In this document: positions 1,322-20,511 of the stretch, in pieces
Numbering within the stretch: the first letter of the stretch is position 1
Layout of the letters: every line of letters begins with the position of its first letter
Virus record (IMG/VR): IMGVR_UViG_3300049489_000380
Location: 1-23,969 of that record
Origin: a virus
Direction: 5' to 3' (one strand)
Length of the DNA stretch: 23,969 nucleotides
Notes under the pieces: model-generated
The model's database searches: none
Told to the model about the DNA's origin: nothing
Seen by the model: only the letters and a program-made list of their open reading frames with translations
Made by a program: the position numbers and the translations under genes

Positions 1322-1659
1322 TCAACCGACTAAAATCAATAGCCCTAGAGATAGCCATCCTGGCCTACATGCTGGCCACGTCATTGCCATGCGCCTACGC
1401 GCTGGACTACGACTTGCGCACGGCATACGTGGCAACATGCGGCTTTTACGCCATTGCGCTGTTCCTGATCAAGTATCGCAGGCAGCCGTTCACCACCGGC
1501 GCCGGCATGCTGCAGAGTGATGAGAATAAAATCCGTTATGGCTTGCGCACGCTGCACGACGCCGTGGAAACCGGTTCTGTCTTTGCTTTGTTCATGATCC
1601 CAGTTATACTGCAGGCTCTATTTGTTAACTATTTGAGCGGCGCATGGCCAGACATTTGA
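1318..1659 (+). CDS. Small integral membrane protein (113 aa)
   Basis: About three hydrophobic segments are visible: residues 7-29 (ALEIAILAYMLATSLPCAYAL), about 37-53 (AYVATCGFYAIALFLIKY) and about 88-107 (SVFALFMIPVILQALFVNYL). They are joined by a basic loop (KYRRQPFTTG) and a polar stretch (QSDENKIRYGLRTLHDAVE). That topology fits a small inner-membrane protein. It overlaps the upstream gene by ATGA and the downstream coiled-coil/membrane gene by 16 bases, so the two membrane proteins are probably made together. It is too far from the lysis cassette (22962 onward) to call it a holin. Superinfection exclusion or envelope modification are possible roles, but nothing here proves either. Confidence 0.55.
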   Translation: MINRLKSIALEIAILAYMLATSLPCAYALDYDLRTAYVATCGFYAIALFLIKYRRQPFTTGAGMLQSDENKIRYGLRTLHDAVETGSVFALFMIPVILQALFVNYLSGAWPDI

Positions 1660-2180
1660 GAGACATAGCCCCGAGCGCCGAGGTCATGGCCGAATTCCGC
1701 GATTCATTGTCATCCGAGACAAAGTCGCGGGAGTTCCATGCAAAATACCCGGAATTTTGCGACAAAACCATGATTTTTTTTGAGGAAATGGCCGGGTTTG
1801 CAGTGCGAGCAGCTACACGAGACGACATAAAACAGCTGGTAGAGTCAATCAGGGTCCACGCAGAACAGCTAGGGCATCACGATCGACGAATAAATGACCT
1901 TGATTACCGCGTCAAGCATCTTGAGCAGCTCGTAACTCACGTCAAAATCGCAGTAGACGCAAGCAGCGAAATCGCCAAGCAGAATTTGCAACTTTCACAA
2001 TCCATAAGCGCCCGTCTTGACGAAATGTCGTCAAAAACCCCAGTAAAAACCCTCGCATCTATTCCAGCCATAGCCTGGCCAATTATCGGCGTTGTCGCGC
2101 TCGCGTCTGTTGCTGCCCTGGCGGGCGAAATGGCCGGGTTCATCAGGTGGCTGGGCACAATCAAAATATTCGGATCGTAA
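1644..2180 (+). CDS. Coiled-coil protein with a C-terminal membrane anchor (178 aa)
   Basis: Residues 1-55 are polar and helical. Residues about 60-130 have heptad-like hydrophobic spacing (IKQLVESIRVHAEQLG, INDLDYRVKHLEQLV, LQLSQSISARLDEM), suggesting a long coiled coil. A strong hydrophobic segment (SIPAIAWPIIGVVALASVAALAGEM, about residues 139-163) near the C-terminus should anchor it in the membrane, with a short tail. No family is recognised. It overlaps the preceding membrane-protein gene by 16 bases and is followed one base later by the small gene at 2182. The three form a compact cassette of unknown function; a tail-anchored coiled coil beside a small membrane protein suggests a membrane complex, as inference. 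Confidence 0.55.
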   Translation: MARHLRDIAPSAEVMAEFRDSLSSETKSREFHAKYPEFCDKTMIFFEEMAGFAVRAATRDDIKQLVESIRVHAEQLGHHDRRINDLDYRVKHLEQLVTHVKIAVDASSEIAKQNLQLSQSISARLDEMSSKTPVKTLASIPAIAWPIIGVVALASVAALAGEMAGFIRWLGTIKIFGS

Positions 2181-2397: not shown

Positions 2398-2404
2398 CAA
2401 ATAG

Positions 2405-2454
2405 TTGCACATTTGGCGTTATGCGTTTAAAATAACGAAAACGCCGAATGGTTT
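2405..2454 (+). promoter_or_regulatory. Putative promoter with nested palindromes (repeat copy R1)
   Basis: TTGCAC at 2405-2410 and TAAAAT at 2428-2433 are separated by 17 bases, a reasonable sigma70-type pair. The -10 sits inside the inverted repeat CGTTAT (2417-2422)/ATAACG (2432-2437), and a second one, GGCGTT (2415-2420)/AACGCC (2440-2445), encloses it. The block 2417-2454 matches 2693-2730 without gaps at 30 of 38 positions, including TTAAAATAACG and CGAATGGTTT. A palindrome over a -10 box suggests a repressor-controlled promoter for the 65-aa gene at 2477. Promoter activity is inferred. Confidence 0.45.
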
Positions 2455-2476
2455 GCGGTTGTAGCGGGGCCTATAA

Positions 2477-2674
2477 ATGAGCACAGAAGCGGAATATCTA
2501 ATAGCGGCGCTAAAACGTCTCGATGCCAGCAAGGTGATCTGGGAGCTGGAGGTCACATATCACGAGGATGGCAGCGGCGATATCTCATATTTTGCTCCTG
2601 ACCGGTTAGGTTACTACCCGACGTTTAAATTTAATAAAAACGGCGAGCTAATTCACGCCGGTGTCACTATATAA
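2477..2674 (+). CDS. Small hypothetical protein (65 aa)
   Basis: The protein starts with a helix (STEAEYLIAALKRLDASKVIWELEV), followed by strands with acidic and aromatic residues (TYHEDGSGDISYFAPDRLGYYPTFKFNKNGEL). No family is recognised; the strand part looks like a short beta-hairpin domain. It is preceded by the promoter-like repeat R1 and a GCGGGG stretch upstream of the ATG that could act as ribosome-binding site. It is followed by the second repeat copy R2. Standing alone between two similar promoter/palindrome blocks, it looks like a self-contained accessory cassette rather than part of the coupled operon upstream. Confidence 0.5.
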   Translation: MSTEAEYLIAALKRLDASKVIWELEVTYHEDGSGDISYFAPDRLGYYPTFKFNKNGELIHAGVTI

Positions 2675-2678
2675 AAAC

Positions 2679-2736
2679 AGCTGTAATTTCGTCGTTATTG
2701 TGTTAAAATAACGTAAAACACGAATGGTTTACAGCT
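2679..2736 (+). promoter_or_regulatory. Putative promoter/operator (repeat copy R2)
   Basis: Contains the perfect 7-bp inverted repeat CGTTATT (2693-2699)/AATAACG (2707-2713) with a 7-base spacer, overlapping a -10-like TAAAAT at 2704-2709. The -35 region is weak (CTGTAA at 2681-2686, 17-base spacing). An outer inverted repeat AGCTGTAA (2679-2686)/TTACAGCT (2729-2736) encloses the element and runs up to the ATG at 2737. The 38-base core matches R1 at 30 positions with no gaps. The next gene encodes a small HTH-like protein, so autoregulation through these palindromes is an attractive inference. Confidence 0.45.
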
Positions 2737-2967
2737 ATGACCCCATCAAAACAAGCCAAATTTTACGGCGCGCGCTCACTAGAGGCTGTCGCGTCATTCT
2801 CTGGATACACAGCAGAGACACTACGCAGGTACGCAGCTGAAAAGCCCGATAGGTTCAGGGGGCTTTGCCTCGCGTGCGTGTGCGATGAGCTTAAAATAAC
2901 CGGGCCGCAGCTTAGGGCTCTTCATGCCATGCACATGTCAGTTAGTCATGCGGAAATCAAAAGGTAG
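2737..2967 (+). CDS. Small HTH-like putative DNA-binding protein (76 aa)
   Basis: Residues about 14-37 (LEAVASFSGYTAETLRRYAAEKP) fit a helix-turn-helix: a first helix, the turn at SGYT, then a recognition-like helix AETLRRYAAEKP. The remainder (RFRGLCLACVCDELKITGPQLRALHAMHM) is helical. The 'SxxTLRxW/Y...KPxxF' arrangement resembles many small phage regulators of this size, but I cannot name a family. It starts directly at the end of palindromic repeat R2. Only a weak Shine-Dalgarno is visible, so expression may be low or leader-controlled. Likely role, inferred: a small transcription factor acting on R1 and R2. Confidence 0.5.
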   Translation: MTPSKQAKFYGARSLEAVASFSGYTAETLRRYAAEKPDRFRGLCLACVCDELKITGPQLRALHAMHMSVSHAEIKR

Positions 2968-2976
2968 GAACACAAA

Positions 2977-3225
2977 ATGCGCCATTTATTTGCGATGATT
3001 AAGAGCCGTATCAGAAATGAACAGCCGGCCTGCCCGGCAGTAGGGAGCCTCTGGAAATTCAAGAACAACTCCCCCTGGCCGAAACAGGACTATTTCGTAA
3101 CTGTGATTGATACCGAATCTGGATGGGTTAGATACAAAATTGTCAACGGCGGTATTTACGGCGATTCGCAGCTTAGGCTCGACAGCTTTTTTATCTGCTA
3201 TCAGCAGGTTGAGCCATCAACATAG
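2977..3225 (+). CDS. Small hypothetical protein, SH3-like pattern (82 aa)
   Basis: After a basic N-terminal helix (HLFAMIKSRIRNEQ) comes a strand-rich part: PAVGSLWKFKNNSPWPKQDYFVTVIDTESGWVRYKIV, then RLDSFFICYQQVEP. The order 'VGSxWxxK...PW...VxVxDxxxGWVRY......L...F...Y' is a recurrent pattern of small phage accessory proteins that should form an SH3-like barrel. No enzymatic motif is visible. The ATG is preceded by AGGTAGGA about eight bases upstream, a good ribosome-binding site. Nine bases separate it from the HTH-like gene upstream and ten from the YopX-like gene downstream. Confidence 0.5.
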   Translation: MRHLFAMIKSRIRNEQPACPAVGSLWKFKNNSPWPKQDYFVTVIDTESGWVRYKIVNGGIYGDSQLRLDSFFICYQQVEPST

Positions 3226-3235
3226 GGAATTAATT

Positions 3236-3568
3236 ATGTCCAAACGATACCGCTACTACTCAAGCGAGCACCAAAAGTTTTTCTATGCAAACATTGGCGA
3301 CGGCATTAGCAAGATTGTGGTCGACCCTGAGCACATCCAGCTAGGATCAGGCGTACATTCAATTGATGGCGAGGAGATATTCGAGGGCGACATAGTGCAG
3401 TTGCAGCACACCAATCTGCGCGCGACTATCGATTTTGATGAAGGCTGCTTTTGTTTTCAAGGCTTCATGACGCACAGCGAGGCAACGTACTGGCCATCGA
3501 ATCTTGTAGTGATCGGTAATATCGTCGAGGGGTTAAAAGATGGATTTGCAGACAAAAACCTTGCATAA
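3236..3568 (+). CDS. YopX-like phage protein (110 aa)
   Basis: The protein begins MSKRYRYYSSEHQKFFYAN and carries the core signature of YopX-type phage proteins: IDGEEIFEGDIVQLQH near residues 43-58, then TIDFDEGCFCFQGF and LVVIGNIVEG near the C-terminus (strand, 'GD-I-V', variable strand, 'IGNI'). YopX family members are about 110-140 residues and are common in phage accessory regions with unknown function. The ATG at 3236 was chosen because it begins after the preceding stop. The frame is open to an ATG at 3107, but that start would overlap the upstream gene by more than 100 bases and add unrelated sequence. Confidence 0.6.
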   Translation: MSKRYRYYSSEHQKFFYANIGDGISKIVVDPEHIQLGSGVHSIDGEEIFEGDIVQLQHTNLRATIDFDEGCFCFQGFMTHSEATYWPSNLVVIGNIVEGLKDGFADKNLA

Positions 3569-3610
3569 TACAGGGCATTGTTGTAGCAATCAAAAAAGAA
3601 CGGTGAATAG

Positions 3611-4063
3611 ATGCCAATTACAGTAGAGAACAGGGCGGCAATGCCGCCTCGGGGTCGAAACAAAAAGACCATTATTCTTGAAGCGCTAAAGAAAACGGCT
3701 CTTCAGGGACTCGATCGAAACTCTTCAAACGAAGAGGCCGAGGAGGTGTGGTTCGCGTTTCTCGCAAGAAGCGCGGTTGATCCGGCAAACAAAGATGCCG
3801 GGGCCTGTTTGCGATTGTTGACCGAGAGGGGGTGGGCAGCACTGAAAGCCACAACTGAGCCAGTCCATTTTGAGTTCGATCGAGAGGCGAGCCCAACAGT
3901 CCAGGCTGCTCAGATTATCAAGGCGGCCGCAGATGGAGTGATACCCGTTGAGCATGCAACGCAATTAGTATCAGCAGTCCGAGCATTGATTAGCGTAGAG
4001 TTCGAGACAGACACCAAAAAACGCCTTGAGGCTATGGAAGCGTTGTTGAATGGGAGTCAGTGA
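3611..4063 (+). CDS. Putative terminase small subunit
   Basis: A 150-residue protein beginning MPITVENRAAMPPRGRNKKTIILEALKK. The basic N-terminus with a helical segment could be the DNA-recognition part. The middle (EEAEEVWFAFLARSAVDPANKDAGACLRLLTERGWAAL) and the C-terminal helices (FETDTKKRLEAMEALL) suit an oligomeric terminase small subunit. The identification rests mainly on position directly before the large terminase (14-base overlap) and on similarity to phage proteins of the PPRGRNKK...LRLLxERGW type. The ATG at 3641 (giving MPPRGRNKK) is an alternative start. It would bind pac/cos DNA and hand it to the large subunit for packaging into the procapsid. Confidence 0.5.
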   Translation: MPITVENRAAMPPRGRNKKTIILEALKKTALQGLDRNSSNEEAEEVWFAFLARSAVDPANKDAGACLRLLTERGWAALKATTEPVHFEFDREASPTVQAAQIIKAAADGVIPVEHATQLVSAVRALISVEFETDTKKRLEAMEALLNGSQ

Positions 4064-4376
4064 TCGACTTCAGAAGCTCGAAGCGCTGGTTGCCGCGCGC
4101 GCCGGTATCGTAAAGCCGTCAGTATATGGAATCGTAGACAGGGTTGATCTGATCGACGGGGCGAAAGTCCCTCATTTCATTCGAAAATGGAAGGGCTCTA
4201 TAGGCAACATGATCGAGACGGACGATGAGCCGACCATCATGTGCATTGAGAAATTAGAGCCCGCGATTCTGAGACACAAAAAATACAAATGCCTGTTCGG
4301 CGGTAGGGCCGGAACCAAATCAATGTTCGCTATGGATGCAATGGCTGTAAAGTGCTTTGTCTGCGCGAGCGAATGA
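4050..4376 (+). CDS. Terminase large subunit, N-terminal fragment (frameshifted)
   Basis: This 108-residue frame ends shortly after the ATPase Walker A segment: KYKCLFGGRAGTKSMFAMDAMA, with GGRAGTKS at residues 84-91. The phage-type P-loop has Thr where Gly is usual, but related 'deviant' P-loops (GGRGSAKS) are common in terminases. After AMDAMAV the frame reads KCFVCASE and stops. The expected next strand (VLCLRERMKSLKES) is encoded from 4352 in the -1 frame. One additional A in the AAA run at 4349-4351 would restore a continuous protein of about 552 residues. Start at 4050 has GGAAG nine bases upstream. This fragment alone lacks Walker B and the nuclease, so it cannot work as a motor. Confidence 0.75.
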   Translation: MGVSDRLQKLEALVAARAGIVKPSVYGIVDRVDLIDGAKVPHFIRKWKGSIGNMIETDDEPTIMCIEKLEPAILRHKKYKCLFGGRAGTKSMFAMDAMAVKCFVCASE

Positions 4377-5707
4377 AGTCGCTGAAAGAGTCCATTTACT
4401 CTGGCGTGGCCGGGCGAATAGTTGACCTGCAGTTCGAGGGATTCACCCCTGTGCCATCACACTCCGAGATTAGGCACAGGTCAGGCGGTGGATTCTCATT
4501 CCAGGGCATGCAGAACATTGCAGATTTCAAATCCTTATTCCGTTACAGGTATTTCCTAATGGAAGAATCGGCCCGCACAAGTCAACACGCAATCAACACG
4601 CTAGGCCCAACACTTCGTGACGTTGAGGGCGCAGAGCTGTGGTGGGTGTGGAACCCCGAGAGCGTCAGCGATGCAATCAGCAAAGAGTTCATTAATCCGT
4701 ATCAGTCTCAACTTGATCGCGACGGGTTTTATGAAGACGAGTTTACGATGGTCATCAAAGTGGGCTACCAAGACAATCCATGGTTTGAGCTTGATCAGTC
4801 ATTAAGCACTGAGATGAAAAAAGACCGTGCACGGGTAGCTCGCGGGATAATGCCGCAGGCTAGGTTCAGACATATTTGGGAGGGTGGATTTTTGGACGAC
4901 GTAGAGAACGGATTGATCAAAGAGGAGTGGTTCGACTCTTGCGTTGATGCTCATATCGCTCTGGGCTTTGAGCCGCTAGGCGCCGTTGTTGTTGGATTTG
5001 ACCCAGCAGATACCGGCGGTGACGCCCATGGTTACGCTGTTCGCCATGGTCGCGTGTTTACTCAGGTCGGCGAGATCGATGCAGCAAACGGCAACAGAGC
5101 GGCAGATGAGGCGTGTGGGCTGGCGAGAAACAACCTGGCGGACTTCTTTATATGGGATTGCGACGGCTTGGGTGCAACACTGCGTGATAATGTCGCCAAT
5201 GGGTTGTCGGCTGGTAAAATTACCCCGCTGATGTTCAAAGGCTCTGAATCGCCTGAGCGGCCAGACGCAAAATTTTTCGACAGCGAGCATCACAACATCA
5301 AGGGTAACCCAACGAACAAGCAGGTGCTGAGGAATAAGCGAGCCCAAGGTTATGTTCAGCTGGCCAGGGCTATGCGCCTCACTCATGAGGCCGTGCAGAA
5401 ATCAAAGCGCGGCATTGCTCCGGCGATCAATGTTGATGAGCTGATTTCGTTCTCGTCGGCCGGGATGAAGAGCAAAGACAAGCTCCGGGCGGAGCTGAGC
5501 CGCCTCCCTCTTAAACCCGCATCGGGCATGGTTGCGCTGTACTCAAAAGACGAAATGCGCAGAGGTATTAGCACAGCCACGGGCTCGCGTCTAGTCATCC
5601 CGTCGCCAAATATGGGCGATTCTGTTATGATGGCATTCTTTGAGACCCCGGTTATGTCAATAAACTGGGGCGATGACATTCAATACCAGCCGGAGTATAT
5701 GGCGTGA
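4352..5707 (+). CDS. Terminase large subunit, C-terminal fragment (Walker B and nuclease)
   Basis: Read from GTG 4352, 451 residues contain the rest of a terminase large subunit. LCLRERMKSLKESIY is the strand and helix that normally follow Walker A. FLMEE at residues 68-72 is Walker B plus the catalytic Glu. WWVWNPES (97-104) is the coupling motif. The RNase H-like nuclease has acidic residues at D217 (VVGFDPADTGG), D269/D271 (IWDCDG) and D423 (NMGDSVMMAFFE). It lacks Walker A, which is in the upstream frame. If translated separately it could start at ATG 4373, which overlaps the upstream stop as ATGA, but this would drop the LCLRE strand. It overlaps the portal start as GTGA. Confidence 0.85.
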   Translation: MLCLRERMKSLKESIYSGVAGRIVDLQFEGFTPVPSHSEIRHRSGGGFSFQGMQNIADFKSLFRYRYFLMEESARTSQHAINTLGPTLRDVEGAELWWVWNPESVSDAISKEFINPYQSQLDRDGFYEDEFTMVIKVGYQDNPWFELDQSLSTEMKKDRARVARGIMPQARFRHIWEGGFLDDVENGLIKEEWFDSCVDAHIALGFEPLGAVVVGFDPADTGGDAHGYAVRHGRVFTQVGEIDAANGNRAADEACGLARNNLADFFIWDCDGLGATLRDNVANGLSAGKITPLMFKGSESPERPDAKFFDSEHHNIKGNPTNKQVLRNKRAQGYVQLARAMRLTHEAVQKSKRGIAPAINVDELISFSSAGMKSKDKLRAELSRLPLKPASGMVALYSKDEMRRGISTATGSRLVIPSPNMGDSVMMAFFETPVMSINWGDDIQYQPEYMA

Positions 5708-7770
5708 TCGACAAGAAAACTTTTGTGCAGATGTACAACGCTGCGAAAAATTACACTGATCAGCTCACCGAAGACAACATTAAGAGCCTCGACTATTATT
5801 TGCAGAGCCCTCGCGGCGATGAGCGGCCCAACGAGTCCAGAGCGGTAAGCTCAGATTGTTTTGACGTGGTGGAATCTGACATGCCATCAATGGTGCGCAC
5901 ATTCCTAGGTGGCGGGGATATCATGGAATTCGCGCCAGGCAATCCATCGAACAAGGCTGAGGTGTTGGAGGCTGAGCAAAAGACCAAGTTGATCAATCGG
6001 CTGATCCTGCGCCAAGAGTGGTCGTTCAAACTGTGGTACGACTGGCTCAAGGGGGCCGGTATATTCAATTACTCTGCGGTGACTTATTACCCCAAAAAGA
6101 CCGAGAAGCGCACGGTCCGAGTGTACAACGGTATTTCACGCATCGAGCTTGAGGCAATCGCCGCTGCACTCGATGAGTCTGCTGACGTCACCAGGGTCGA
6201 GATCACTGAGAGCGATTATGATGATGGAACAATCGACGCACAATTTGAGATTTGGCGCAAAACTACCGAATATATCGCGGAGTATATCCAGCCCGACAAA
6301 TTCCTGATTAGCCGTGGCGGCCCAACGCTGGATGATTGCTCATTCGTCGGCCATGTTGACACGCTGCGCAAAGGCGAGCTCATCGAAATGGGCATTTCGC
6401 CCAGTATCGTCAAAACGCTGCCAGCCTATGTGACGTCAGGGTTCAATAGCCAGACGTCATCGCTATCTAGCAGCACGCGCATAGATGATGCAATGCAGGG
6501 CGCCATTGGGGGTGGATACGATACCGAGTCAGAGCCCGAGTGGTATCTCGATCAAGTCGAGGTTGTTTTCGCGTGCGTAATTTCAGCATTAAAATCCGGT
6601 CATCTTGATCGGCGCCGTGTTATTTACGCTGGTAATGAAATCCTGAGCGATGAGCCGTTTGACCACGTTAACTATGCGGTCCTGTCCTCGTATCCGCTGC
6701 CAGGTCAGGTGATCGGCATGAGTCGGGCTGGGATCACCAGAAGCACTCAAGACAAGAAAACTTTCATTCAGCGCGGCATTCTCACAAACATGGCGTCCGT
6801 CATTAAGCCGATGACCGCGATCAACATCGACAAAGATGCAGGCGCGGTCAATATCGATGACATTCAAAACCGCAGGCCCAATGGGGTGGTGAGAGTCAAG
6901 GGCGATCCGTCGTTTTCTATCATGCCGCTGCCTGCCGTTGATATTAGCCAATCCGCATTGACGCTGATCCAGTACCTAGACTTTACCCGGGCACAGACCA
7001 CTGGCGCCCTAATGGCAAGCCAGGGGCTCAATAAAGACGCGATATACAACGAGACGGCAACCAGGTTTTCAGGTGTGCAGGCGGAGGGAGCCAGTAAGCT
7101 GGAGGCCGTCATGCGCATTTATGCTGAGACCGGCTGGAGAAAGGTTTATCGCGGGTTTGAGTGGATGGTGAAGCACTACCAGTCTGACGCTATCGAAGAG
7201 ACCGTATTGGGCGAGCAAATAGCATACAGCCCTTCAGATTGGGCGTATGACTGCGAGCTAAACACAACAGTAGGTTTGGCGGCTGCTGATACGTCTGAGC
7301 TAATCGAAAACCTTGGGGCGATTTACAACACGCAATCACAGCTAAGGGCCCAGGGCTCGATGCTCGTTGACGACGCGAAAATGTTTAGCACGCTCAGCAG
7401 GCTGCTAAAGGCAATGAATGTTCACGACCCCGAGGCGTTCTATAACGACCCGTCTCAGCCCGATCAAACAATCAGGGCGCAGAATGAGCAGATGAAAGCA
7501 TTGATATCTCAAATGCAGGCCCAGGCTCAGGAGCTGCAAACCAACCAGGCATTTAAGCAGATCGAAGAGCTAAAAGCCCAGGTTTCGATGCTGAAAGACC
7601 AGAACAAGCAAGCGCTGGATGCCGCGAAATTGCAGGAGGATGCGCGCCAATTCGATATCACAACAGAGCAGAAGGAGCGCCTGCATCGGGCAGATAACGC
7701 TGTGAAAATTGCAGGGCTTGAACTTGAGCACGATAAAAACCTAGCAGGCGGAATCAAAAATGAGCGATAG
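5704..7770 (+). CDS. Portal protein (P22-like, podoviral)
   Basis: The 688-residue protein forms the dodecameric ring through which DNA enters and leaves the head. The N-terminus (SLDYYLQSPRGDERPNESRAVSSDCFDVVESDMPSMVRTFLGG) is the typical opening of podoviral portals: YYxG-like, RSxVVSxDvxDxVE, PsxxrxF. The stem and clip region follows. Residues about 587-688 are a long Gln/Glu/Lys-rich helical tail (QMKALISQMQAQAQELQ...LKDQNKQALDAAKLQED), comparable to the helical barrel of the P22 portal; the length is close to P22's 725. The start is GTG at 5704, overlapping the terminase stop, with GGAG at 5692-5695 at suitable spacing. It lies between terminase and scaffold as expected. Confidence 0.85.
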   Translation: MIDKKTFVQMYNAAKNYTDQLTEDNIKSLDYYLQSPRGDERPNESRAVSSDCFDVVESDMPSMVRTFLGGGDIMEFAPGNPSNKAEVLEAEQKTKLINRLILRQEWSFKLWYDWLKGAGIFNYSAVTYYPKKTEKRTVRVYNGISRIELEAIAAALDESADVTRVEITESDYDDGTIDAQFEIWRKTTEYIAEYIQPDKFLISRGGPTLDDCSFVGHVDTLRKGELIEMGISPSIVKTLPAYVTSGFNSQTSSLSSSTRIDDAMQGAIGGGYDTESEPEWYLDQVEVVFACVISALKSGHLDRRRVIYAGNEILSDEPFDHVNYAVLSSYPLPGQVIGMSRAGITRSTQDKKTFIQRGILTNMASVIKPMTAINIDKDAGAVNIDDIQNRRPNGVVRVKGDPSFSIMPLPAVDISQSALTLIQYLDFTRAQTTGALMASQGLNKDAIYNETATRFSGVQAEGASKLEAVMRIYAETGWRKVYRGFEWMVKHYQSDAIEETVLGEQIAYSPSDWAYDCELNTTVGLAAADTSELIENLGAIYNTQSQLRAQGSMLVDDAKMFSTLSRLLKAMNVHDPEAFYNDPSQPDQTIRAQNEQMKALISQMQAQAQELQTNQAFKQIEELKAQVSMLKDQNKQALDAAKLQEDARQFDITTEQKERLHRADNAVKIAGLELEHDKNLAGGIKNER

Positions 7771-15115: not shown

Positions 15116-15892
15116 ATGGCGGGCGAGGGCGATTTTCCGTTCCGCTCAGCCTATGCCCGTGGCCGTGGCCGTGGCCGTGGCGCAAAACCATATGATTTCG
15201 CAATACAATCTTACAATGACGCCAATAAGTTAATTTGGTCAGATTGGTTCTTTAATGCACCAAGCGGCGGCGCCTTGCATGATGCTTCCGGTGCTTTGGT
15301 TGGCCCCGGCTCTGTCATTACAGGCTCCGCAGCGCGAACAAAACTGCATGACTCAAGCGGGGCGCTTGTAGGCCCAGGCTCGGTCATTTCTGGGGTTGCA
15401 GCTAGAAGTAAGCTGCATGCGGCATCTGGCGCATTAGTCGGCCCTGGTTCTGTTATTACCGGCTCAGCCGCAAGGGCAAAAGTTCATGACGCTACAGGGG
15501 CCCTTATTGGCCCTGGGGCTCAGGTGGTTGGCGCGGCAGCCCGCACACGATTGCATGATGCCTCTGGCGCCATTGTTGGCCCAGGCTCGGTTATAGCTGG
15601 GTCTGCAACAAGAACTAGGCTGCACACGGCAAGCGGTGCTTTGGTTGGCCAGGACTCGGTTATTGTTGGCAGCGCTTCACGCACTAAGCTCCATGATGCC
15701 ACAGGCGTACTGGTCGGACCAAGCGCTGAACTAATCGGTTCAGCTGCTGTGTTGCGCAACCATGTCGCAACGGGGGCGTTGATTGGCCAGGGCTCTGTAA
15801 TCACTGGCGCAGCGCTACACATTAAACCACCGTCCGCAGGCGGCGCAAGAACTCGATTTATCCGCCCATTCTTCACCAACTTTATGAGTTGA
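15116..15892 (+). CDS. Tail-region protein with eight 23-residue tandem repeats (258 aa)
   Basis: Residues 1-53 are a leader containing an Arg-Gly run (ARGRGRGRGA) and an aromatic segment (IWSDWFFNAPSGGA). Residues 54-237 are eight 23-residue repeats of consensus LHDASGALVGPGSVITG followed by SAARTK, and residues 238-258 form an Arg/Phe-rich tail. In each repeat, His at position 2, Gly at 6, 10 and 17 and Ala at 19 or 20 are nearly fixed. This 'HxaSGaLxGxGsxixGsA' unit recurs in diverse phage-encoded proteins and probably builds an extended beta-rich rod; the Arg-rich ends may anchor it. Function is unknown; its position before the ejection genes suggests a virion fibre. Confidence 0.6.
   Translation: MAGEGDFPFRSAYARGRGRGRGAKPYDFAIQSYNDANKLIWSDWFFNAPSGGALHDASGALVGPGSVITGSAARTKLHDSSGALVGPGSVISGVAARSKLHAASGALVGPGSVITGSAARAKVHDATGALIGPGAQVVGAAARTRLHDASGAIVGPGSVIAGSATRTRLHTASGALVGQDSVIVGSASRTKLHDATGVLVGPSAELIGSAAVLRNHVATGALIGQGSVITGAALHIKPPSAGGARTRFIRPFFTNFMS
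15157..15180 (+). repeat. Four tandem CCGTGG hexamers
   Basis: A 24-base microsatellite encoding alternating Arg and Gly in the leader of the 23-residue-repeat protein. Slippage by whole hexamers would keep the reading frame, so the number of RG pairs could vary among related phages. Confidence 0.7.
15275..15826 (+). repeat. Eight 69-bp in-frame tandem repeats
   Basis: Eight consecutive 69-bp units encode the 23-residue repeats. At DNA level they are clearly diverged: the GGCCCAGGCTC-type segment varies from unit to unit, while encoded residues at His, Gly and Ala positions stay fixed. That indicates old duplication under protein-level selection rather than recent expansion. The seventh and eighth units (ending LR and IK) are the most diverged. 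Confidence 0.8.
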
Positions 15893-16948: not shown

Positions 16949-18127
16949 TTGGCCATAAATTCCAGTATCCCGCTGCGGATGATGCAAAACGACCAGCCAA
17001 GCACATTTGAGCTGTTAAATCAGGGCATGCAGCTTCGCAGTCAAATCGACAATGCGCCGCTGCTTAAAAGCCAAAACCAAGCCCAAGCACAAATCGCCCA
17101 GGCTGGAGCCGCCGCAGTTGCCCGCGAAGACTCCCTCCGCAAAGCCGGAATTATTTACAACTACGCGAACCAATTAAAGGCGGTGCCAATGGCTCAGCGC
17201 CGAACGTTTTTAGCGTCAATCCCGCCAGATGTCATATCTGGCGTCGGATTAAACCCAGAACAGCTCCAGGGCATGGCCATTGATGACGCCAGTATCGACA
17301 CAACAATCGCCCAGCTTCAGCCTTTACTGCAACAGCAAGGCGCGCAGCAACAAGGGCCCGCATCTCGTCGCAGCCAGGACTATGCAGGCGGCCGGATTAC
17401 AGTTCAAGAAATGACTGATGGCACCGTCAGGTACATGCAGTTCGGTAAAGAAATCCCGCCCGAGCAGGTTCAGGCCGCATTTGAGTCGGCAAACAAGGAG
17501 CACCTTGGCGAGCAAGAGCGATTAAATTACAGCCGCCGCAGCGGGTCTCTTGCCGCAGAGCTTGGATATCGGCCGGAAATAGTGTCACGCGAGACTTCAG
17601 AGCGGTTTGAGTCAAAAGGCGAAGAAAATCGCGCCCAAACTGTTATCGATAGCGGGCTTGATGCATCTCAAGGTCTGCCTGAGCTGAAGCGCTCACTTGA
17701 ATTGCTAAATGAAGTTGATACGGGCGGCATAGATGCTGTCGCGCTGAAAATACAACAGGCGTTCGGGGTTGAAGGCGCAAATCCAGGCGAGCTATCTTAC
17801 AACCTTGGTAAATCCGTTATTTCTCAGCTCAAGTCCATGTTTGGCGGGGCATTCACAAACGACGAGAGAAAACGACTTGAGCAGATCGAGGCAGGATTTG
17901 GAAAAAGCCCAGCAACAAATAAGCGCCTAATATCAAACACAATTCAGATTGTCGAGAGAAAAGCAAAACGAGCCATTGAGCGCGCGGAAGACCGTGGCGA
18001 TTACGAAACCGCAGACGAAATTAGAGCGAATATGGAAGCCATCATGGAACAGCGAGATGAAGTAAAACCGACCGCAAGTAAACCTGCGGCCAGCAACGAT
18101 TTTGAAGGCTTCGAGATCATTGAGTAA
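16949..18127 (+). CDS. Putative DNA-ejection (internal virion) protein, medium
   Basis: A 392-residue, highly charged, Gln-rich helical protein. Residues about 22-60 (LLNQGMQLRSQIDNAPLLKSQNQAQAQIAQAG) and 130-140 (QQQGAQQQG) are low complexity. A central part GTVRYMQFGKEIPPEQVQAA is followed by helical segments (ELKRSLELLNEVDTGGIDAVALKIQQAFGVEG, DERKRLEQIEAGFGKSPATNKRLISNTIQIVERKAKRAIERAEDRGDYETA). The C-terminal core resembles other phage internal proteins of 'ALKxxxxxxxGx...LNxxxQ..LxQLK..FGGxxTexExxxLxxIxxxxGxspxxN' type. The start is TTG at 16949 with GGGGGG about eight bases upstream; ATG 16979 is an alternative. The stop overlaps the next ATG by one base (TAATG). Confidence 0.6.
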   Translation: MAINSSIPLRMMQNDQPSTFELLNQGMQLRSQIDNAPLLKSQNQAQAQIAQAGAAAVAREDSLRKAGIIYNYANQLKAVPMAQRRTFLASIPPDVISGVGLNPEQLQGMAIDDASIDTTIAQLQPLLQQQGAQQQGPASRRSQDYAGGRITVQEMTDGTVRYMQFGKEIPPEQVQAAFESANKEHLGEQERLNYSRRSGSLAAELGYRPEIVSRETSERFESKGEENRAQTVIDSGLDASQGLPELKRSLELLNEVDTGGIDAVALKIQQAFGVEGANPGELSYNLGKSVISQLKSMFGGAFTNDERKRLEQIEAGFGKSPATNKRLISNTIQIVERKAKRAIERAEDRGDYETADEIRANMEAIMEQRDEVKPTASKPAASNDFEGFEIIE

Positions 18128-20511
18128 TGGGAAAAAAAGAATTTTCTATTAAAGCGCCTGACGGCTCGGTGATCAAAGTCACCGCAGATTCCAACGCGGC
18201 TCGCGAAGAGATTTTGACTCTAGCAAAACAAAAGTTTGGCGCTAAGCCAGAAAAAACCGCAGAGTTTTCTATTAAGGCTCCGGATGGGTCGGTGGTAAAA
18301 GTAACCGCAGACGCAGGCACGTCGCGCGAAGAAATTCTCACCCTAGCAAAACAACAGTTTGAGGCAAAAGCAAAAGCAGAGCCTGAAAAACCAATGGTTT
18401 CTGGTCGCGGAATATCCGGCCAGATCAAGACGAATGAGCGCGAAGCGTTTTTATCTGATTTAGAGAAAACTAACCCGTTTCAAGCTAAAGCCCTGCGAGA
18501 CATGAACCCATTCGAGCGTGCGCTGATCGGCGCTGGCTCAGGCTTTTCCACTCTGCTTGAGGGGGCTGGAATCCTATCTCAGAGACCAGAGGACGAAAAG
18601 CTGGCGACTGAGCAAATCGCAAAAAGCGGCAATTCGTTCGGCGCTGGTCAGCTGGTCGGTCAGGCCGCGCCGTTTGCCGGGCTTGGGATGGCTGCCGGGG
18701 CTGCACTCAAGGGCGCTCCGATTGTTAACACAATTACACAAGGCGCGATTGGTGCCGCAGAGGGCGGCATTGTCGCCAGGGGGACCGGCGGTGATGCAGG
18801 CGATATCTTGGCAGGAACGATTACGGGCGGCGCTCTTGGATCTGGGGCTGAGGTTCTTGCTCCTATCCTCAATCGCGCTGCTCGCTCAGTAGTCCAGAAA
18901 GTGACCGGGGCGCCTCCAGCTGGGCGTCTTATCGATGACGCAGGGCGGCCCACAGCAGAGCTACAGCGCGCGCTTGATAAGTCCGGACAGTCATTTGATG
19001 AGGTTGTTGCGGCTGCCACGTCAAAAGACACTGGGTCAGTGGCAAAAAGCATTGTTAGCGCTGGCCGATCTGATGCGCCAGAAGCTGCGGCTGATGCTAT
19101 ATCAGTAAACCCTGAGCGTGTTGCTGCGGCAAAACGAATTGGGGTCCTAGATTCTGCGCCTGTTGCCGTGTTGACTGATGACGCAGCGGCGCAACAGCTT
19201 GGTGGCGCACTAGCCGCAATGCAGGGCACAAAAGAGAGCGTTGCGCTTGACAAGCTGGCCGCTGATTTTGGCCAGGCTGCCGATAGCTTTATTGCTGATA
19301 TCGGAGGGTCTATTGATCGCAATGCAGTTAGCGACGAATTGCTTGGGAAAATAACTGACGACATCACGAGAATCAAGGCGATTGAGAATAGGTTATATGG
19401 CCCGATAGACGACGCAATAGGCCGTGGCACCCGTATTGAGGATTATGCGCAGCCGCTAAAAAATAGGCTGGCAGCCAAGGCGCGAAACTCAGGCGGCGAA
19501 AAAAGACTTCCTCGGCATGAGCGTGAAATGCTGCAAATGCTAAAAAGTCAGGAGGGCATGACCTACCAGAATTTAATCGACAAAATGCACGACATAGGAA
19601 ATGCGGCGTACCGCAAGACGACCACGTATGACGACATCGACACCGCCTCGCTGAAAATGATGTACGGCGATTTAATGCGCGTTCGTGAAGCGGCGGCAGA
19701 TACGTTCGGAGTCGGCGAAAAGATGGCCAAAGCCAAAAAGCTTGGGGCGTCTCGGTTTGCCCTCCAGGAGTCTTCAGACGCTTTATTTGGCCAGAATCTT
19801 GAGCGATCCATATTTGGCCGAATTGATCGCGCAGTAAAAGGGCTGCCGCAGGGTGCGGTAAGAGAATTTACAGTGACAATGGATTTAATCCCTGCAAAAC
19901 ACCGCAAATCTGTTGCCGCGTCAATGCTAAGTACCGCAATGACTGGCGGGCGTGATCAGTCTGTTGGGATAAATTCAACCCAGTTTTCGAAATGGTTCAG
20001 AAATCTCGAGCGGCAACCAACGGCGATGAGCGCGCTAAAAAAATACGTCGGCGAGACGGAGGTAGGGCGCCTGAAAGATTTCGCAACTCTCGCCGAAGGG
20101 GTCTCAGGCGTTACCAAAAACAGAATCCGCACCGGCGTTGCAGGGGACTCGTTAAAGCGGCTAGATGATGTTAATGCTGTAGCCAAAAAACTTTACCAGA
20201 TAGCAGGCCCTATGGCTGGCGCTGTATCCGGGGCTGTTAGGGGCGCCGCTGATCTGATCGGAATGGCCAAAACCCCTGCTGTTGAAGCCGCAGACAATGT
20301 TTTAAGTTCAAGCAAATTTAGAGCCGCAGTTATTGAGGGCGCTAAGTCGGGCGTAAAAACAGACAAATTTAAACGCCTCGACGCGGCTCTCAAGGCATCG
20401 CCAGAGTACAAAAAATACATGAGCTCACTGACTCCTGACTTGCGCTCACAGGTAGCCGCCACTGGCCTTATTGCATGGCTGGCAACATCAAAAGACGAAG
20501 AGGAAAAATAA
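18127..20511 (+). CDS. Putative DNA-ejection (internal virion) protein, large, with duplicated N-terminal domain
   Basis: A 794-residue protein. Residues 5-40 and 46-81 are near-identical copies of a domain reading EFSIKAPDGSVIKVTAD then REEILTLAKQ; this 'xxxxAPDGxxxxVxAxxxAxxEEILxxAK' domain usually occurs once at the N-terminus of phage internal proteins. Residues about 136-250 are Gly/Ala-rich and hydrophobic (GAGSGFSTLLEGAGIL, APFAGLGMAAGAALKGAP, ITQGAIGAAEGGIVARG), fitting a membrane-inserting ejection channel. The rest is long and helical with charged stretches. It is the third and largest of the ejection set and is followed by the tailspike with a TAATG overlap. No transglycosylase or peptidase motif is seen. 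Confidence 0.6.
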   Translation: MGKKEFSIKAPDGSVIKVTADSNAAREEILTLAKQKFGAKPEKTAEFSIKAPDGSVVKVTADAGTSREEILTLAKQQFEAKAKAEPEKPMVSGRGISGQIKTNEREAFLSDLEKTNPFQAKALRDMNPFERALIGAGSGFSTLLEGAGILSQRPEDEKLATEQIAKSGNSFGAGQLVGQAAPFAGLGMAAGAALKGAPIVNTITQGAIGAAEGGIVARGTGGDAGDILAGTITGGALGSGAEVLAPILNRAARSVVQKVTGAPPAGRLIDDAGRPTAELQRALDKSGQSFDEVVAAATSKDTGSVAKSIVSAGRSDAPEAAADAISVNPERVAAAKRIGVLDSAPVAVLTDDAAAQQLGGALAAMQGTKESVALDKLAADFGQAADSFIADIGGSIDRNAVSDELLGKITDDITRIKAIENRLYGPIDDAIGRGTRIEDYAQPLKNRLAAKARNSGGEKRLPRHEREMLQMLKSQEGMTYQNLIDKMHDIGNAAYRKTTTYDDIDTASLKMMYGDLMRVREAAADTFGVGEKMAKAKKLGASRFALQESSDALFGQNLERSIFGRIDRAVKGLPQGAVREFTVTMDLIPAKHRKSVAASMLSTAMTGGRDQSVGINSTQFSKWFRNLERQPTAMSALKKYVGETEVGRLKDFATLAEGVSGVTKNRIRTGVAGDSLKRLDDVNAVAKKLYQIAGPMAGAVSGAVRGAADLIGMAKTPAVEAADNVLSSSKFRAAVIEGAKSGVKTDKFKRLDAALKASPEYKKYMSSLTPDLRSQVAATGLIAWLATSKDEEEK
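18139..18369 (+). repeat. Tandem duplication of a 36-residue N-terminal domain
   Basis: The two copies encode residues 5-40 (18139-18246) and 46-81 (18262-18369), a 123-base period. Most differences between copies are at third codon positions (for example GAATTTTCTATTAAAGCG against GAGTTTTCTATTAAGGCT), while the protein differs at only a few sites in the first 17 residues. This indicates duplication followed by purifying selection on both copies. Confidence 0.8.

Follow-up and report, generated by a model that had tools for sequence, protein, structure and literature searches.

Gene arrangement around B1 and B2

The window analysed here is a whole IMG/VR virus record, linear and 23,969 bases long, in which the longest open frames of the plus strand tile positions 471-23929 with gaps nearly absent; its portal protein is 25-28% identical to those of LUZ24/PaP3-type and other podoviruses, and no tRNA was found in it. 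By the gene list of the present analysis, intergenic sequence between 295 and 23930 adds up to about 541 bases, and the original prediction, which placed small, independently regulated genes in an otherwise continuous operon, was right with regard to the operon. The two largest gaps, 2398-2476 (79 bases) and 2675-2736 (62 bases), each contain one of two similar blocks, B1 and B2, which at ~58 nt apiece nearly fill these gaps in a block of podovirus late genes (Table 1). As predicted, B1 precedes a single small gene (gene A) and B2 lies directly before gene B; because the small genes C and D trail gene B by 9 and 13 bases, respectively, B2 heads a run of three genes and not the single gene originally envisaged. 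Gene A has no significant fold match in PDB, and its phage relatives are limited to weak matches (E 0.2 or more).

Table 1. Features of the region around the two intergenic elements (window coordinates)
Feature	Position	Strand	Remark
Element B1, 58-nt imperfect hairpin/promoter cassette (candidate)	2403..2460	+	starts 5 nt past stop codon of gene 2182-2397
Element B2, second copy	2679..2736	+	starts 4 nt past gene A stop; ends at gene B start codon
B1 inner dyad CGTTAT-N9-ATAACG, 6-bp arms	2417..2437	+	sequence
B2 inner dyad CGTTATT-N7-AATAACG, 7-bp arms	2693..2713	+	sequence
B1 putative promoter TTGCAC-17-TAAAAT	2405..2433	+	matrix scan; consensus scan lists TGCACA-16-TAAAAT
B2 putative promoter CTGTAA-17-TAAAAT, extended -10 (TGT)	2681..2709	+	matrix scan; absent from consensus-scan list
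CGAATGGTTT, B1 conserved 3' part	2445..2454	+	identical at 2721-2730
CGAATGGTTT, B2 conserved 3' part	2721..2730	+	identical to 2445-2454
Gene A, 65 aa, no family	2477..2674	+	predicted helix and four strands, pLDDT 89
Gene B, 76 aa, its first ~48 aa belonging to a small HTH-like phage family (start MTPS-K/Q-x-AK)	2737..2967	+	
Gene C, 82 aa, no family, within insertion	2977..3225	+	
Gene D, 109 aa, YopX-like, within insertion	3239..3568	+	PF09643, E 1.5e-5, above gathering score

The stretch of ~1.2 kb from about 2398 to 3610, which holds the four small genes and separates a gene of the late operon from the gene for the small terminase (TerS), is best read as a putative accessory insertion. 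The comparison draws on two relatives whose loci hold the junction before TerS; the relatives are distant, and most of their loci end short of this junction. In L004, with a terminase that is 63% identical, the homolog of gene 2182-2397 (23% identity, E 3e-6) runs to 1560, with TerS beginning at 1724. In L046, which was taken from the contig of L005 and has a terminase that is 74% identical, TerS at 7487 comes after a 173-aa gene with only weak similarity (E 0.03) to window 1644-2180. The insertion is absent between these two genes in L004 and before TerS in L046, and tblastn detected none of genes A-D in 19 terminase-relative loci, two of which yielded TerS. The accessory character that the original prediction attributed to the small genes is thus supported by the lack of the four-gene stretch at the corresponding junctions. 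The matching junction of L004 (1561-1723) is itself arranged like a terminator plus a promoter, a G+C stem and its long T-run lying ahead of TATAAT; it is not among the 12 highest-scoring promoter sites that the matrix gave for L004.

Several other features of the window were observed in passing. The large terminase gene falls into two frames, 4050-4376 and 4352-5707. A short stretch present in L003 and L046 is missing from the window (4300-4420), so that either a small deletion or an assembly error breaks the gene; intact copies are present in relatives. Gene 15116-15892, which encodes a repetitive late protein, consists largely of near-identical repeats of ~23 residues (LHDASGALVGPGSVI...), and the start of the 794-aa gene (18127-18400) contains a duplicated domain of ~41 residues (FSIKAPDGSV...) with a repeat distance of 123 nt.

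Similarity of the two copies and promoter-like sites

The originally reported match of 2417-2454 with 2693-2730, at 30 of 38 positions without gaps, was reproduced. When the whole window was dinucleotide-shuffled 60 times, the top-scoring pair of 38-mers separated by no more than 1 kb showed 24-27 identities and never 30, and chance similarity of the blocks is accordingly rejected; the higher-scoring 38-mer pairs of the real window lie within repetitive coding genes, at 15.3-15.6 kb and 18.1-18.3 kb. The similarity extends beyond the blocks initially noticed, to 56 nt at 73% identity (2399-2454 and 2675-2730), and the identities are clustered (p about 0.02, given 21 differences in 67 columns), including identical runs of 11 nt (TTAAAATAACG) and 10 nt (CGAATGGTTT), one of which covers the -10 box. 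The predicted CGTTAT...ATAACG palindromes overlapping TAAAAT are present in both blocks, with all 12 arm bases of the B1 inner dyad identical in B2; the predicted arm length of 7 bp holds for the second block, the arms of the first being 6 bp long.

Sigma-70 promoters have -35 and -10 hexamers spaced by 16-18 nt. We scanned ~47,800 positions on both strands with a matrix of approximate sigma-70 weights. B2 ranked 5th and B1 10th, or 17th and 6th, respectively, without the bonus for an extended -10 box, and with or without this bonus no other intergenic site of the plus strand enters the top 25, which supports the promoter-like sites of the original prediction. A plain consensus scan of the first 6 kb returned 8 promoter-like sites against 6.5 expected, B1 among them and B2 not; the -35 hexamer of B2 is poor. 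Transcription from sigma-70 promoters starts 5-9 nt past the -10 box, and the predicted starts would lie near 2440 for B1 and near 2716 for B2.

The window contains two copies of the element, and the relatives' loci searched yielded none. At the sensitivity used, no further copies were found in IMG/VR, 84,980 genomes, or phage or plasmid collections, and the search of the rest of the genome and of relatives for the palindrome cassette that had been suggested with the original prediction likewise ended with B1 and B2. Exact-pattern searches returned 0, 2 and 3 stretches in IMG/VR and 6 in one species-level genome set; inspected by eye, none of these 11 stretches extends convincingly past the searched letters, for which reason we take them as chance matches and reject them as further copies (two, L021 and L022, are inside long open frames). 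Searches of this exact-match type would overlook copies that have diverged. A covariance model of the element (R1) found nothing in 18 terminase-relative records and, when run on 88 loci and the window, only the two training copies and sub-threshold matches. In a blastn search, the region 2390-2990 gave short, chance-like plasmid matches and one 26-nt stretch of a Pseudoalteromonas phage at the start of gene B.

Fold of the elements and possible modes of action

B1 and B2 likely have a hairpin in common, as judged from the two sequences compared. The predicted RNA folds reach -20.5 kcal/mol (z -3.0) for B1 (2403-2464) and -15.7 kcal/mol (z -2.9) for B2, the latter having 8 pairs in its outer, 5 in its middle and 7 in its inner helix and a bulge of 6 nt on the 3' side. 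A known RNA family is rejected, given that none of 4227 Rfam models matched 2300-2800 (E up to 1). The hairpin is not an intrinsic terminator either, since a U-run is absent, and it is not among the terminator-like sites listed. A leader peptide, suggested by the ATG within CGAATGGTTT and, on reading by eye, by a ten-codon frame in B1 that terminates in an ATGA overlap with gene A, was set aside because the differences between the copies alter residues yet preserve base pairing.

The fold raises the less likely but serious alternative that B1 and B2 act in the late mRNA, where a hairpin of ~58 nt might serve as a processing site for an RNase (e.g. RNase III) or as a translational operator before genes A and B; such an element would be a compact switch separating the accessory genes from late transcription. 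One three-helix fold fits both copies: when the 20 pairs of B2 are superimposed on B1 without gaps, 18 of them form, compared with a mean of 14.6 when the same 17 differing positions are randomised (18 was reached in 1.1% of cases, p 0.011, and in 0.1% with random positions), and 6 of the 8 pairs touched by differences between the copies stay paired, two through a double change and four as G-U. Moreover, G-U pairs are permitted on the plus strand only, the other strand keeping 14 of the 20 pairs in B1, and the B2 stem terminates at the start codon. Against this reading, the comparison involves two sequences only, the minimum-energy fold of B1 itself pairs differently from that of B2, the minus strands are just as stable when compared with shuffled sequence (z -3.4 and -4.0), and in the control for the pair counter the observed value is attained by 126 of 500 shuffles. 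The lack of an Rfam match also counts against it, and an RNA function leaves the -10 box in the conserved loop unexplained. A literature search for intergenic hairpins with small genes and RNase III sites found no reports. A combination of both levels, in which a DNA promoter with its -10 box in the dyad loop is joined to a covarying three-helix RNA hairpin that forms upon transcription from the upstream late promoter and leads to closure or cleavage of the following gene's leader, appears unlikely; were it true, the accessory genes would be made from their own start only and, on the late transcript, would stay off or follow a timing of their own.

The original prediction considered the HTH-like product of gene B as a possible regulator of both blocks. 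For this protein to bind CGTTAT...ATAACG over both -10 boxes and repress itself as well as gene A seems quite improbable to us. The unchanged dyad arms and the position of gene B directly after B2 are consistent with such an operator pair, as are two predicted helices (15-22 and 26-35) compatible with an HTH and a weak match to the PHROG 409 'transcriptional regulator' profile (E 0.017); the AlphaFold model is weak, with pLDDT 64, and has no significant Foldseek match. Relatives point the other way. Among the gene B relatives from IMG/VR (66 loci obtained, 65 used, upstream distance measurable in 64), the gene mostly abuts the preceding one (median -4 nt for the 64 and the window), with a distance of 40 nt or more in 5 of 64; TAAAAT occurs within 60 nt upstream in only 2 of 65, and the covariance model of the element has no significant match in these loci or in 11 named-phage loci. 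The gene B family thus does not bring the element along, which speaks against a conserved self-operator and is still compatible with a private one, and a 6-bp dyad in one block is probably not rare by chance. The proposed regulatory role of the gene B product is therefore unsupported.

The gene B family (L047-L112 and window 2737-2967) comprises widespread small phage proteins with an HTH-like core, most of them abutting or overlapping the upstream gene. The first 21 nt of gene B recur unchanged in one Pseudoalteromonas phage and almost unchanged in PVA1, which suggested a signal in the DNA. This reading was rejected: 11 phage relatives show ordinary coding conservation of the MTPS-K/Q-x-AK start with varying codons, and the exact 21-mer does not occur in IMG/VR.

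We consider it very improbable that the copies are a recombination site or mobile repeat that marks a cassette boundary around gene A and has no regulatory role of its own. The direct copies do flank exactly one gene, and the insertion is missing in two relatives, but there are just two copies, 73% identical, profile matches for the ten genes scanned around them include no integrase or transposase, and the differences between the copies tend to keep the pairing and spare the -10 box.

The explanation that we prefer, with moderate confidence, is that B1 and B2 represent one intergenic promoter/hairpin cassette that was copied, diverged and gives the accessory genes their own start. The cassette would be a promoter of the sigma-70 type, its -10 box falling within the loop of an imperfect inverted repeat (hairpin). 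Host RNA polymerase would start at each copy, amid the late genes, with B1 serving gene A and B2 serving genes B-C-D, so that these genes would not depend on the main late transcript for their expression. The dyad that overlaps the -10 box would be a likely site of modulation by some regulator, and the two similar copies could provide the homology through which gene A might be gained, lost or swapped. The promoter is the most likely part of this cassette, and for the hairpin both an RNA and a DNA role are in play. The cassette suggests how an uncultivated podovirus lineage may supply small genes that it has recently acquired with separate expression signals in a tight late operon.

Comparison with known intergenic control elements

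The feature is real and of a kind that is ordinary and common among phage control elements, with a sequence unseen elsewhere. In promoter early stem-loops (PeSLs), the stem-loop acts as a terminator beside an early promoter. Repeated promoter and stem-loop cassettes of this type were reportedly described in T4-type phages (Arbiol 2010, Comeau 2014). B1 and B2 resemble them as repeated cassettes of a putative promoter and a stem-loop among small accessory genes, and PeSLs are thought to aid gene shuffling. Unlike the classical PeSL, the hairpin of B1 and B2 encloses the promoter and has no terminator U-run, and there are two copies in 23,969 bases, located in the late block of a podovirus, with no sequence relation established. 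By comparison, the T4 PeSLs, which are cited in PMC4503421 and PMC3950731, occur as dense copies in variable regions of T4-type phages (PMC4503421).

Intergenic repeats of the halovirus HF2, as presented in PMC8707807, are of similar length (56-58 bp), carry an AT-rich promoter motif and have promoter activity in a reporter assay, the promoters of B1 and B2 being putative; they differ in being archaeal promoters, in having more copies and in being conserved across a virus genus, whereas B1 and B2 have no copies in relatives. The ESAS/SAS of cluster K mycobacteriophages are, like B1 and B2, imperfect inverted repeats just upstream of the start codons of genes with unusually large gaps; according to PMC3203893 and PMC12699233, they possess 17-bp arms, a 13-bp start motif with a Shine-Dalgarno core and many copies, and are unrelated to B1 and B2 in sequence. 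Direct reading of 2390-2740 revealed neither a 17-bp inverted repeat nor GGGATAGGAGCCC. The gene-start motif of HGTV-1 (PMC3950731) is similar in that a TATA-like region and an inverted repeat precede most genes in one arm, albeit in an archaeal virus and in many copies.

Because the defining features of both are lacking, we file B1 and B2 with neither PeSLs nor ESAS. These precedents place a promoter and/or an inverted repeat before small phage or virus genes and therefore count in favor of the promoter/hairpin cassette. By analogy, and with no homology implied, B1 and B2 can be regarded as the same working kind as PeSLs, HF2 repeats and ESAS, namely, a repeated intergenic control cassette before small genes.
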